Shown here: in pieces, positions 30,819 to 35,187 of the stretch
Numbering within the stretch: position 1 is the stretch's first letter
How the letters are laid out: each line of letters opens with the position of its first letter
Source: Streptomyces sp. YIM 130001
GTDB lineage: Bacteria; Actinomycetota; Actinomycetes; Streptomycetales; Streptomycetaceae
Assembly: GCF_003574445.1 (NCBI RefSeq)
Contig: NZ_KZ984552.1
Span: 310,001-374,000 of the forward strand
DNA length: 64,000 nucleotides
Direction: 5' to 3'
Position numbers and translations under genes: made by a program
Notes under the pieces: model-generated
What the model was told of the DNA's origin: nothing
Database searches by the model: none
The model's input: the letters and a program-made list of their open reading frames with translations, nothing else

Positions 30819-30849
30819 TTGGCGCCGCTCGGTATCGGCGCCCTAAGGT
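30819..30849 (+). promoter_or_regulatory. Promoter of the Y-RNA / rsr locus
   Basis: TTGGCG (30819-30824), a 19-nt spacer and TAAGGT (30844-30849) place +1 at about 30856-30857, exactly where the first Y-RNA stem begins. The spacer is slightly long. Confidence 0.5.
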
Positions 30850-30856
30850 AATTCTC

Positions 30857-30996
30857 GTCCAGGTGCGAAGGCAGGACCTACTTCCACTTCTAATGGGGCG
30901 GTCGCGGGTTCGAATCCCGCCTCCGGTATTCACGTGCCGGAGTAGCTCAGTGGCAGAGCACCACACAGTCGGTTCCGCCGGCCTTGAACTCTGGAC
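30857..30996 (+). ncRNA. yrlA: Y RNA with permuted tRNA-like module (YrlA type), copy A
   Basis: The ends pair as a Y-RNA stem: GTCCAG-GTGCGAAGGC (30857-30872) with GCC-TTGAACT-CTGGAC (30981-30996). The internal bulged segment (GCGAAGG / CCTTGA) resembles the conserved Ro-binding helix. The inner module is a circularly permuted tRNA: T arm GCGGG-TTCGAAT-CCCGC (30904-30920), acceptor 3' strand CTCCGGT (30921-30927), 8-nt loop, acceptor 5' strand GCCGGAG (30936-30942), and D arm GCTC-AGTGGCA-GAGC (30945-30959). GGCGG/CCGCC (30897-30901/30975-30979) replaces the anticodon stem. It is probably bound by the Rsr protein encoded downstream. It is not a real tRNA because the halves are in reverse order. 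Confidence 0.88.
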
Positions 30997-31012
30997 AGCA
31001 TGAACCTCGTGC

Positions 31013-31084
31013 ACCTCCCGGTGCGCAGGCGGCGGCTACTTCCTTTCCTGAAATGTGCCGCAGCCGTCATGGATCTCGGGAGGT
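31013..31084 (+). ncRNA. Short Y RNA-like hairpin, copy B, without tRNA module
   Basis: ACCTCCCG (31013-31020) pairs perfectly with CGGGAGGT (31077-31084). The strand continues with GTGCGCAGGC and TACTTC in the same spacing as copies A and C. An inner stem GCGGC/GCCGC (31032-31036/31057-31061) closes the hairpin. The Ro-site consensus carries C instead of A (GCGCAGG), and the opposite strand (TCATGGATCT) is less like copies A and C. It may therefore be a diverged or regulatory copy, about 72 nt long. Confidence 0.65.
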
Positions 31085-31092
31085 TCGAGCGC

Positions 31093-31235
31093 GGGGTGCC
31101 CGGTGCGAAGGCAACGGTTACTTCACGGTCCGGAAGGCCGCGGGTTCGAATCCCGCCATCGGCCATGGTCGATGCAGCTCGGTGGACGAGCATCCGGCAC
31201 AAGTCCGTCGCCGCCTCCAAGTCCTCGGGCATTCC
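31093..31235 (+). ncRNA. yrlA: Y RNA with permuted tRNA-like module (YrlA type), copy C
   Basis: The outer stem GGGGTGCCCG (31093-31102) pairs with CGGGCATTCC (31226-31235), including two G-U pairs, followed by GTGCGAAGGC (31103-31112) opposite GCCTCCAAGTCCT (31213-31225). The module repeats copy A: T arm GCGGG-TTCGAAT-CCCGC (31140-31156), acceptor CATCGGC (31157-31163), loop CATG, GTCGATG (31168-31174), and D arm GCTC-GGTGGAC-GAGC (31177-31191). The acceptor sequence differs from copy A while keeping all seven pairs. This covariation is strong evidence of selected structure. Confidence 0.88.
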
Positions 31236-31248
31236 CGCGTGAAAACCT

Positions 31249-31290
31249 CCCCCGATCGTCCTGCACGATTCATCGTTCGGAATTCGGGGG
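31249..31290 (+). promoter_or_regulatory. Leader hairpin that could mask the rsr ribosome binding site
   Basis: CCCCCGA (31249-31255) is complementary to TCGGGGG (31284-31290), which includes the only purine-rich Shine-Dalgarno candidate, 7 nt before the rsr ATG. A smaller ATCGT/ACGAT hairpin (31255-31259/31265-31269) overlaps the loop by one base. Confidence 0.4.
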
Positions 31291-31297
31291 AATTCTC

Positions 31298-32902
31298 ATG
31301 GCGCGTTTCAACGCCAAGGCGGCCCGGCAGGGCCCCACTTCCGCGGTGCACACGTCCGGACGTACCGCGCGCACCCACCAGGGCGGCCGCGGACACCTCC
31401 GCGACGCTCGCTCGGAACTCTTTCTGCTCGCCGTCGCCAACTTCGTCTCCCAGCAGACCTTCTACGAGTCCGGCGGCGACCGCGACGACCGGTTCACCGC
31501 GCTCGTGCGGCGTCTCGCCGTCCAGGACCCCGAGTGGACCGCCGGCCTGCTCGGCTGGATGCGCACCGAGGGCCGGCTGCGTACGGCCTCGCTGGTCGGC
31601 GCCGCCGAATACGTCAAGGCGCGCCTCGACAGCGGCGTGCAGGCGGGCCCGGCGAACCGTCAGGTCATCGCCTCCGTGCTGCGCCGTCCCGACGAGCCCG
31701 GCGAGCTGCTCGCCTACTGGACCGGCCGCCACGGCCGCAACGTACCCAAGCCCGTCAAGCGCGGCATCGCGGATGCGGCGCGGCGCCTCTACCACGCCCG
31801 GTCCCTGCTCAAGTACGACACCGCGACGAAGGGGTACCGCTTCGGCGACGTCCTCAACGTGGTGCACGCCGCCCCCGACGCGGCCAAGCCGTGGCAGGGC
31901 GAACTGTTCCGGTACGCGCTGGACCGCCGGCACCACCCGGAGACGGCCGAACCGCCCGCCCGGGACCGGACGTTGCGCGCGCACCGCGAGCTGATGGCCC
32001 TGCCCGTCGCCGAGCGGCGCGGTGTGGTCACCGGGCCCGGCGGCGCGGAGCGGCTCGCGGCGGCCGGGTTCACCTGGGAGGCGCTTGCGGGCTGGCTGCA
32101 GGGGCCCATGGACGCGGCGGCGTGGGAGGCTGTCATCCCGTCGATGGGAACCATGGCGCTGGTTCGCAACCTGCGGAACTTCGACGAGGCCGGGGTCTCG
32201 GACGAGGTCGCGGCGACCGTCGCGCGGAAGATCGCGGACCCGGCGGAAGTCGCCAAGTCGCGGCAGTTCCCCTTCCGTTACCTCGCCGCATATCAGCACG
32301 CGCCCTCGCTGCGCTGGTCGTACCCGCTCGAGCAGGCCCTCGGCCACTCGCTCGGGAACGTTCCGTCGCTGCCGGGTCGCACGCTGGTCCTGGTGGACCG
32401 CTCCGGTTCGATGTTCTTCTCGCGGCTGTCCGACCGGTCCGAGCTCACGCGGGCGGATGCGGCGGCGGTCTTCGGCACGGCGCTGGCGCTGCGCGCGGCG
32501 AAGGCGGACCTGGTCGAGTTCGGTTCGTCGAGTGCGGCGGTGAAGTACCGGACGGGGGAGTCCGTCCTGAAGGTGCTGGGACGGTTCCACAACCTCGGCG
32601 GTACGGACACGAGCGGTGCGGTGCGGCGACACTTCGCCCGGCACGAACGGGTGTTGATCGTCACGGACGAGCAGTACGGATCCGCTGGGCGCGGGCCGAC
32701 GGAGCTGATCCCCGCGGGGGTGCCGGTGTACACGTGGAACCTGGCCGGGTACCGGGTGGGCCACGGGCCTGCCGGGGGTGACAAGCGGCATGTGTTCGGG
32801 GGGCTCTCCGATGCGGCGTTCCGTATGGTCGCGCTGCTCGAGGCCGGGCGCGACGCCGCGTGGCCGTGGCTCTCCCGGGACGCGGGCGGCTCCGCCGCGT
32901 GA
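31298..32902 (+). CDS. rsr: Ro60-family (TROVE domain) RNA-binding protein Rsr
   Basis: The protein has 534 residues. The TROVE ring of HEAT-like repeats spans about residues 25-355 (RDARSELFLLAVANFVSQQTFYESGGDRDDRFTALVRRLAVQDPEWTAGLLGWMRTEGRLRTASL...FPFRYLAAYQHAP). A C-terminal von Willebrand A domain follows, with an intact MIDAS DRSGSM at 367-372 and VTDEQY near 450. Ro proteins bind Y RNAs and misfolded structured RNA and feed RNA to nucleases. The frame is open further upstream, but that extension would be Y-RNA sequence, so ATG 31298 was chosen. It is preceded by three Y-RNA genes. Confidence 0.95.
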   Translation: MARFNAKAARQGPTSAVHTSGRTARTHQGGRGHLRDARSELFLLAVANFVSQQTFYESGGDRDDRFTALVRRLAVQDPEWTAGLLGWMRTEGRLRTASLVGAAEYVKARLDSGVQAGPANRQVIASVLRRPDEPGELLAYWTGRHGRNVPKPVKRGIADAARRLYHARSLLKYDTATKGYRFGDVLNVVHAAPDAAKPWQGELFRYALDRRHHPETAEPPARDRTLRAHRELMALPVAERRGVVTGPGGAERLAAAGFTWEALAGWLQGPMDAAAWEAVIPSMGTMALVRNLRNFDEAGVSDEVAATVARKIADPAEVAKSRQFPFRYLAAYQHAPSLRWSYPLEQALGHSLGNVPSLPGRTLVLVDRSGSMFFSRLSDRSELTRADAAAVFGTALALRAAKADLVEFGSSSAAVKYRTGESVLKVLGRFHNLGGTDTSGAVRRHFARHERVLIVTDEQYGSAGRGPTELIPAGVPVYTWNLAGYRVGHGPAGGDKRHVFGGLSDAAFRMVALLEAGRDAAWPWLSRDAGGSAA

Positions 32903-33906: not shown

Positions 33907-35187
33907 TCAGAGCGCGCGGGCCGAGGGCTTGACCATCCCGCGCACCGTGCGGGACTTCACGAATTCGCCCATCGCCGTCATGTCCCACTCGCCGGAGAAC
34001 TGCCGGACCAGCTTCGCCATCATCACGCCGGTCTGCGCCTCGGCGTTCGTCAGGTCGAACCGGACCAGTTCCTCGCCCGTCGCGGCGTCCATGAGGCGGC
34101 AGTACGCCTTCGCCACCTCGGTGAACTTCTGGCCCGAGAACGAGTTGACCGTGAAGACCAGGCCGCTGACCTCCTGCGGGAGTCGGCCGAGGTCGACCGT
34201 GATGGTCTCGTCGTCACCCGCGCCCTCGCCCGTGAGGTTGTCCCCGGAGTGCTGGACCGCGCCGCCGAGGATGGTCAGCTTGCCGAAGTAGCAGCTCTCG
34301 ATGTGGTTGCGCTGCGGGCCGTAGGCGATGACCGAGGCGTCCAGGTCGATGTCCTTGCCCCGGTACGCCGGCTCCCAGCCGAGGCCCATCCGCACCTGGG
34401 AGAGCAGCGGGCTGCCGCCCTTGACCAGGGACACCGTCTGGTTCTTCTGGAGGCTGACCCGCCCCTTGTCGAGGTTGATCTTCCCTGCGCCCGGCGCCGG
34501 CGCGGCGGGAGCCTGCGGAGCGGCGGGCGCGGGCGGGGCCGCGGCCTGCGGGGCGGGCGCGGGCGGTGTCTGCGGTACCGGGGCGGCGGGCGGAGCGACT
34601 CGCGGGTCGACCGCAGGGGCAGCAGGCGCCGGCGGTGCGACCGGGGTCTGCAGCGTGGGAGTGGGCGCAGGGGCGGCCGGTGCGGGCTCGTCGACGCTGA
34701 CACCGAAGTCGGTGGCGATGCCCGCCAGGCCGTTCGCATAGCCCTGTCCGACCGCGCGGACCTTCCACGCGCCGCCCCGCCGGTAGACCTCGACGACGAC
34801 CAGCGCCGTCTCGGCGCCGAGCTGCGGCGGGGTGAAGGTGGCGAGTGCGGCACCGTCGTCCGCGTTCCGCACCGTCGCGGTCGGTTCGACGCCCTGGAAC
34901 GACTGGCCTGCCGCGTCCGGGCTCGCGGTCACCACGATCCGCTCGATGCCTGCCGGTACCGCCGCGGTGTCCACGACGATCGCATCGGGCGCGGAGCCAC
35001 CGCCCGAGCGGTAGGTCACACCGGGGCCCGAGGGCTGGTTGTAGAAGATGAAGTCGTCGTCGGAGCGCACCTTGCCGTCGGCGGTGAGCAGCAGGCTCGA
35101 TACGTCGAGCCGCACCGGGGCGGCGACGTCCACCGCTACGCGGGCGGTGGCGAGGGGGATGTTCGAGCCGGGGGTCATAGCTGTCAT
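33907..35187 (-). CDS. Two-domain TerD family protein with Pro/Ala linker
   Basis: The protein has 426 residues. The N-terminal TerD/TerZ-like domain (residues about 8-165) has DFIFYNQPSGPGVTY and VVEVYRRGGAWKVRAVGQGYANGLAGIATDFGVSVDEP. It is joined by about 75 residues of almost pure Pro/Ala to a second beta-sandwich (residues about 245-426) with LDASVIAYGPQRNHIESCYFGKL, HSGDNLTGEGAGDDETITVDL and VNSFSGQKFTEV, a further TerD-type calcium-binding domain. TerD proteins are linked to tellurite resistance and stress or membrane-associated complexes. The gene has no ter neighbours here. Confidence 0.9.
   Translation of the reverse strand: MTAMTPGSNIPLATARVAVDVAAPVRLDVSSLLLTADGKVRSDDDFIFYNQPSGPGVTYRSGGGSAPDAIVVDTAAVPAGIERIVVTASPDAAGQSFQGVEPTATVRNADDGAALATFTPPQLGAETALVVVEVYRRGGAWKVRAVGQGYANGLAGIATDFGVSVDEPAPAAPAPTPTLQTPVAPPAPAAPAVDPRVAPPAAPVPQTPPAPAPQAAAPPAPAAPQAPAAPAPGAGKINLDKGRVSLQKNQTVSLVKGGSPLLSQVRMGLGWEPAYRGKDIDLDASVIAYGPQRNHIESCYFGKLTILGGAVQHSGDNLTGEGAGDDETITVDLGRLPQEVSGLVFTVNSFSGQKFTEVAKAYCRLMDAATGEELVRFDLTNAEAQTGVMMAKLVRQFSGEWDMTAMGEFVKSRTVRGMVKPSARAL

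Follow-up and report, generated by a model that had tools for sequence, protein, structure and literature searches.

The locus

The window analysed here is a 64,000-nt stretch of the genome of Streptomyces sp. YIM 130001 (assembly GCF_003574445.1, contig NZ_KZ984552.1, positions 310,001–374,000 of the forward strand). It contains a trio of elements, A, B and C (YA, YB and YC), all on the plus strand and 5′ of rsr, a gene for a Ro60 homolog. The features of this region are as follows.

30844..30849 (+): promoter-like −10 hexamer TAAGGT, set 7 nt ahead of element A, predicted from a profile
30857..30996 (+): element A (YA), core around a complete permuted tRNA cut between positions 26 and 27 (covariation, R2 model)
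30882..30898 (+): YA anticodon arm, UUCCA-CUUCUAA-UGGGG, with UCU at the anticodon position (covariation, loop statistics)
30904..30920 (+): YA T arm, 98.5% paired, two-sided changes in 3 of 5 pairs
30921..30942 (+): YA permuted acceptor stem of 7 bp (3′ strand 30921–30927, closing loop 30928–30935, 5′ strand 30936–30942), 98.4% paired, 5 pairs with two-sided changes
30945..30959 (+): YA D arm, 4 bp, paired, invariant in 52 sequences
31013..31084 (+): element B (YB), short Y RNA, core without a tRNA module (covariation, R1 model)
31093..31235 (+): element C (YC), core around a permuted tRNA cut in the anticodon loop (covariation in 37 sequences, R2 model)
31130..31134 (+): YC anticodon stem, 3′ strand CCGGA, pairing with 31193–31197 (UCCGG)
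31140..31156 (+): YC T arm, 100% paired, two-sided changes absent
31157..31174 (+): YC permuted acceptor stem, 31157–31163 with 31168–31174, loop CAUG, 99.6% paired, two-sided changes in 5 of 7 pairs
31177..31191 (+): YC D arm, 100% paired, two-sided changes in 1 of 4 pairs
31193..31197 (+): YC anticodon stem, 5′ strand (covariation)
31298..32902 (+): rsr, Ro60 homolog of 534 aa (Pfam TROVE, profile matches, predicted fold)

The −10-like hexamer corresponds to TAgAGT at the same place in a profile of 75 stretches preceding A elements (the window among them), and a similar box precedes B in 30 arrays devoid of A. A scan with the sigma-70 consensus gave no match, and the promoter is putative. 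The end of C is separated from the start of rsr by 62 bases in the window and commonly by 51–53 in relatives, and no terminator-like site was found in this interval of the window. Immediately 5′ of the rsr ATG, at 31280–31295, lies a GAATTCGGGGGAATTC box, which recurs with at most two mismatches in 94 of 130 loci. A TerD-domain gene (245.8 bits) is encoded on the minus strand at 33910–35187, 3′ of rsr and beyond a HAD hydrolase gene.

The rsr product matches the TROVE domain with 50.5 bits against a cut-off of 23, the best stretch covering only residues 272–332. A profile search with the same protein matches Deinococcus Rsr (2nvo) and Ro60 (1yvp). In the AF2 model (mean pLDDT 81.9), a helical-repeat ring and a vWA-like domain are present, and the predicted fold matches 13 PDB chains at E ≤ 0.001, every one of them Ro60, Rsr or TROVE; TM values against Ro60/Rsr structures are 0.62–0.69. 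The DxSxS motif, read from the protein sequence, is DRSGS. The first-pass annotation had placed three tandem Y-RNA genes 5′ of a Ro60 homolog, and this reading is borne out by the TROVE match and the fold, by covariation, and by linkage to rsr, since the elements are encoded near a Ro60 ortholog both in the window and in relatives.

A common core with three heads

A, B and C have a closing stem and core in common, consisting of an outer stem, an internal loop (UGCG.A / UUGAUCU), a second helix and UACUUC. A repeat search of the window found the 5′ element GGTGCG.AGGC..ACTTC three times, together with two T-arm copies that are 89% identical across 27 nt. As judged from sequence comparison, the heads on this one core are of three kinds: in A a complete tRNA with its cut between positions 26 and 27, in C a complete tRNA with its cut in the anticodon loop, and in B none. 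D, T and acceptor arms in permuted order are found in A and C and not in B, which closes with a plain loop. The R2 (A) model scores element A at 145.7 bits and the R1 (B) model scores element B at 75.1 bits, the window sequence being contained in each model; R2, although built from A elements, still gives 70.6 bits at 31097–31231 (C).

When single sequences were folded, they were weakly better than their shuffles (z of −2.1 for A, −1.7 for B and −1.2 for C), so folding alone is no proof, and it is the comparison across relatives that proves the structures. The rows compared were distinct, cleanly parsing sequences chosen by the analyst, a subset of the loci; as a control, the 3′ partner was slid, with 51% as the highest paired fraction. 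For A, 99.2% of cells are paired in 52 sequences and 17 of 35 pairs have changed on both sides (slid control 34–48%). For C, the values are 98.6% in 37 class-I sequences and 15 of 37 pairs (slid control 34–48%). For B, they are 93.8% in 44 sequences and 4 of 16 pairs (slid control 35–51%), and the outermost of these 16 pairs fails in 40 of the 44 rows. The structure count for B contains no tRNA arms, in agreement with its earlier description as a shorter hairpin lacking the tRNA part.

The acceptor stems proposed earlier, CTCCGGT/GCCGGAG in A and CATCGGC/GTCGATG in C, do pair and carry two-sided changes across relatives. In the sequences compared, this pairing is kept in 98.4% (A) and 99.6% (C) of cells. 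The D arm of A is invariant in the 52 sequences, and therefore receives no support from covariation.

Read 5′ to 3′, the module of A runs from the anticodon arm through the variable loop and the T arm to the 3′ acceptor strand, a short loop, the 5′ acceptor strand and finally the D arm. Because the whole anticodon arm stands ahead of the T arm, the tRNA is cut at 26/27. The 5-bp anticodon stem is paired in every cell of the 52 sequences, with two-sided changes in 2 of 5 pairs. The anticodon stem of C is split: the strand that follows the D arm is base-paired to the one ahead of the variable loop, in 95.1% of cells and with two-sided changes in 4 of 5 pairs. On this pairing pattern, the C tRNA is complete, with the Y core taking the place of the anticodon loop. 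The permuted T, acceptor and D arms of the first-pass annotation thus stand, but as a description of the module they fall short, as an anticodon stem is also included, whole in A and split in C.

tRNA likeness of the modules

ARAGORN found no tRNA in the window. When the permutation was undone, the program called 81 of 81 A modules as tRNA, against 8 in the native order and none for wrong rotations and shuffles. Similarly, 90 of 91 un-permuted C modules were called, against one in the native order and none for the wrong rotation and the shuffle; the C test was biased towards success, as native letters from the flanks were used to fill in the loop and the 3′ strand was picked for best pairing, and it left out five unparsed C elements, among them that of the window, which was run alone. 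ARAGORN calls were rejected as proof of the A anticodon arm, since modules with a shuffled arm were still called in 1542 of 1620 cases. In other words, the program supports the acceptor, D and T arms only, and for the anticodon arm of A the evidence is pairing, covariation and loop statistics. Nothing could be learned from a free search for cut points, in which 12 of 13 elements each returned at least 111 calls.

Loop statistics were obtained by a search in which the loop letters were unconstrained. A 5-bp stem with a 7-nt loop at a fixed offset was found in 83 of 177 T-arm elements. Three of these hairpin elements (L054, L066 and L124) were excluded as not being A; the remaining 80, with L105 added by eye, make up the A set of 81 modules. 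All 80 hairpins have C32, U33 and A38, while positions 34–35 are variable. Over 71 rows, changes on the Rsr tree at positions 32 to 38 number 0, 0, 22, 13, 4, 8 and 0, and 33 changes of the A anticodon were counted on this tree. With a drifting triplet in a conserved loop frame, what the partner reads is probably the shape of the arm or its modification sites and not codon identity. Thus, A probably imitates the shape of a tRNA rather than reading codons, and is not expected to have a role in decoding. A reading of U36 in A in terms of t6A was weakened, as U36 occurs in 77 of 83 Streptomyces hairpins (three of these not being A) but in only 16 of 30 distinct viral arms.

The heads of C vary in another way. 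Of 91 C heads, 56 are class-I Arg-like, 33 are class-II Leu-like (many with a variable arm) and 2 are Glu-like, names that, like Gln-like for one phage, are given by eye from resemblance to tRNA sequences. The Rsr tree was built as a gene tree with FastTree from 99 rows, of which 81 carry a class label; on it, the head class changes at least 18 times, 7 of the changes being forced by well-supported branches; the mean for shuffled labels is about 25. As read from this tree, Arg-like and Leu-like heads have switched repeatedly, and array exchange between strains would leave the same pattern as fresh capture.

Distribution in Streptomyces

Of 493 loci confirmed in a scan with 21 aligned Rsr proteins, the best 80 were used as named Streptomyces loci; together with 50 loci from whole genomes, they represent 122 distinct upstream regions. 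Parsed elements were present in 118 of the 122. Among 103 loci whose Rsr is more than 72% identical to that of the window, the layout is A-B-C in 55, B-C in 26, A-B in 9, A-C in 8, B in 3 and A in 2; B stands alone in 6 of 15 loci with a more distant Rsr. Such B-only short elements precede rsr copies of 65–71% identity (L043, L047, L048, L049, L051 and L052).

In 295 genomes of the genus, Rsr was matched in 152 (E ≤ 1e-20) and the B model in 142 (E ≤ 1e-4). Both occur in 138 genomes, rsr only in 14, B only in 4 and neither in 139 (Fisher 3e-61, a count per genome that ignores shared ancestry and adjacency). The Rsr threshold may miss divergent copies and also counts partial genes (e.g., G065, E 1e-27). 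Three of the four B-only genomes still align with pieces of Rsr, one of them over just 22 residues; in the fourth, a short Rsr-like tail was seen by eye at the expected place of rsr. Among the 14 rsr-only loci, six were fetched, each with a full-length A-model match 5′ of rsr. In a search of the phylum, the A model matched 12 of 396 genomes, 8 of them at full length, all in the genus of the window, and 4 only in part. A count with this model at 1e-8 in the family (123 of 150 genomes) was discarded, since many listed matches are confined to model positions 26–104, the signature of tandem tRNAs.

The elements also occur apart from rsr. Y arrays persist beside decayed or deleted rsr in four loci (L135, L136, L137 and L138). 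Seven second Y loci with no rsr match were fetched (L139 and L142–L147), six of which lie between metK and priA. In one metK–priA locus (L143:2445-2704), the D arm of the longer copy (GGCCGAGTGGCC..) differs from those at rsr, and we take it, by eye, to be Ser/Leu/Tyr-like.

Phages, plasmids and other Ro loci

At least two full-length A-model matches were found near a Ro gene in four actinophage loci and one Rhodococcus plasmid, five loci hand-picked from the search matches. The matches lie 5′ of the Ro gene in four of the five loci and 3′ in the Arthrobacter phage. All 5 pairs of the anticodon arm form in the Gordonia phage, the Arthrobacter phage and the Rhodococcus plasmid, and 4 of 5 in the two Streptomyces phages. 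The phage Ro genes of L204, L205 and L207 are surrounded by many tRNA genes.

Ro-linked viral contigs were studied as the best 80 of 151; many of these contigs may be prophages or fragments of bacterial origin. Of the 80, 73 have A-model matches at E ≤ 1e-6, and a mechanical search found 94 permuted cores in 64 of them. An arm with a 5-bp stem and a 7-nt loop is at the expected place in 43 of these 94 cores, compared with 88 of 4700 shuffles. Among the 30 distinct viral arms, U33 is found in 28 and A38 in 28, neither being required by the search. Both cut types occur together in 8 viral Ro loci of this set.

Six further plasmid Ro loci, a small sample, were examined. Two Rhizobium plasmids show YrlA, one copy scoring above the cut-off and another having at most a short hairpin. 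In the Y RNA of Deinococcus gobiensis, a short arm closed by a small loop was seen by eye in place of an anticodon loop. The Bifidobacterium plasmid and that of the archaeon Haloplanus gave weak A-model matches of at most 26 bits, and the Allomeiothermus plasmid locus gave no match.

Relation to known Y RNAs

Rfam gave nothing at the gathering score in the window, and YrlA was not found at this score in 8 other Ro loci. A covariance search of the kind proposed in the first-pass annotation gave two YrlA (RF02553) matches in the window, of 36.1 and 30.1 bits; both remain below the gathering score of 69, so the elements are not filed as Rfam members of YrlA. These scores were also rejected as proof, because a tandem tRNA-Asn pair in the same genome (G000:C7:79365-79477, L004:5366-5478) scores higher, at 40.8 bits. 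The YrlA score alone does not discriminate, and what discriminates is rsr linkage, the core and covariation. The same pair gives 55 bits with the A model, across head positions 26–104, which hints that the heads arose from tandem tRNA junctions.

In architecture, the window elements resemble YrlA in having a Ro60 neighbour, a closing stem and permuted T, acceptor and D arms; C aligns with the model over its whole length, A over positions 24–84. They differ in that A of the window has a full anticodon arm with a 7-nt loop, where the Rhizobium copy (96.5 bits) has, by eye, nine bases that form no arm of this kind, and in that the window locus combines three genes, two of them cut at different points and the third headless. 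Animal Y RNAs associated with Ro60 are simple stem-loops with an internal loop, and the headless B is similar to them. Circularly permuted tRNA genes of algae and archaea give rise to working tRNAs; they have the same permutation of segments, whereas here the module is enclosed by a Y RNA, with an anticodon that varies freely (A) or is missing (C).

The Rsr and Y RNA core also recall the Deinococcus Y RNA and its RYPER complex (Rsr–Y RNA–PNPase), the PNPase link being carried over to Streptomyces by analogy only. Passages of PMC4726728 present a scaffold and gate model for Deinococcus Rsr and Y RNA, and cite a broad survey of bacterial Y RNAs. In passages of PMC8394870, the basal stem of YrlA binds Rsr, while the tRNA-like domain, described for bacterial Y RNAs as D, T and acceptor arms, is said to bind PNPase. 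The same passages report that YrlA carries modified bases of the tRNA type (D, pseudouridine). Among the literature matches listed, no paper deals with Streptomyces Y RNAs or with Y RNAs that contain a permuted tRNA, and a full anticodon arm, two cut points and the Streptomyces trio are unreported in them. Y RNAs with tRNA-like domains are thus already known; the form with an anticodon arm, the two cut points and the trio may be new, the Chen 2014 survey aside.

Proposed mechanism and alternatives

Taken together, A, B and C are quite likely to be bacterial Y RNAs, co-transcribed from a promoter before A and bound by the adjacent Rsr. Joint transcription would start from the predicted promoter just 5′ of A. 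By analogy with the Deinococcus and Salmonella work (passages of PMC8394870 and PMC4726728), the Y core would be the Rsr binding site. The head could then act as an effector module that imitates the L-shape of tRNA and recruits a partner recognising tRNA, most likely PNPase if the Deinococcus RYPER complex is a guide, and the headless B might serve as a gate or an inactive competitor.

A rather unlikely alternative is that the tRNA heads, that of A above all, are decoys or sensors, bound or cut by anticodon nucleases or tRNA-damaging toxins, so that real tRNAs are spared or the damage is reported to the Rsr particle. The canonical anticodon loop is kept in A while the triplet varies, as if many targets were covered, and three actinophage Ro genes lie among tRNA genes, but C has no anticodon loop to offer. 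According to passages of PMC7790460, YrlA has been proposed as a competitive inhibitor of an anticodon nuclease, although fragments of Salmonella YrlA were undetected, meaning that this nuclease does not cut it. As far as the arms allow a judgement, a decoy role would fit A better than ordinary YrlA.

It is also improbable that the array acts in cis, folding in the rsr transcript and controlling rsr, e.g., by Rsr binding to its own leader. The spacing between C and rsr, the GAATTCGGGGGAATTC box before the ATG and the interval between, where no terminator-like site was found, are in line with such control. A cis-acting leader would occur only in front of the gene that it controls, but Y elements are found in the seven rsr-free second loci (six between metK and priA) and arrays survive beside decayed or deleted rsr, and they are therefore likely to be RNAs in their own right. 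A combination of both roles is conceivable. The earlier label of an apparent leader of rsr holds as far as position is concerned, arrays preceding rsr, but covers only part of the picture, given these other placements.

That the elements are permuted tRNA genes maturing into working tRNAs is very improbable: every tRNA arm is present and the un-permuted modules are called as tRNA (81/81 for A, 90/91 for C), but ARAGORN is hardly sensitive to shuffling of the arm, the A anticodons drift, C has no anticodon, and the loop between the acceptor strands of A begins with ACCA in just 9 of 81 modules. Least credible of all is a reading of the elements as remnants of tandem tRNA genes with an artefactual YrlA score. 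It is favoured by the tRNA-Asn pair matching both the YrlA and A models, but the Y core is missing from the A-model match of this pair, whereas the elements of the window are matched over their full length and covary; the family also follows rsr in its distribution, so covariation and linkage contradict this reading.

Returning to the Y-RNA reading, a broader proposal is possible but tentative. Actinobacterial and actinophage Y RNAs may form an undescribed class whose head is a whole circularly permuted tRNA, with two cut points coexisting in one array, an identity swapped in place, and an anticodon that drifts while U33 and A38 stay fixed. Their heads might be captured tandem-tRNA junctions that act as universal tRNA look-alikes, possibly as decoys for anticodon nucleases. 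If this is true, the statement that bacterial Y RNAs mimic tRNA becomes testable, and the mimic can be a full tRNA; an A anticodon free of codon constraint within a strongly constrained loop frame would point to partners that recognise the whole tRNA shape.

Consequences for annotation

The A and B models detect Y RNAs that are missed at the Rfam cut-off for YrlA. With the A model, two phage features listed as tRNA genes can also be recognised as probable misannotations. These are L206:1704-1775 in Gordonia phage VanLee and L204:1774-1847 in Streptomyces phage Alone3, annotated as tRNA-Arg(tct) and tRNA-Ser(gct), respectively. Both coincide with the core, anticodon and T part of A-type Y RNAs, and are likely Y RNAs given the wrong name.
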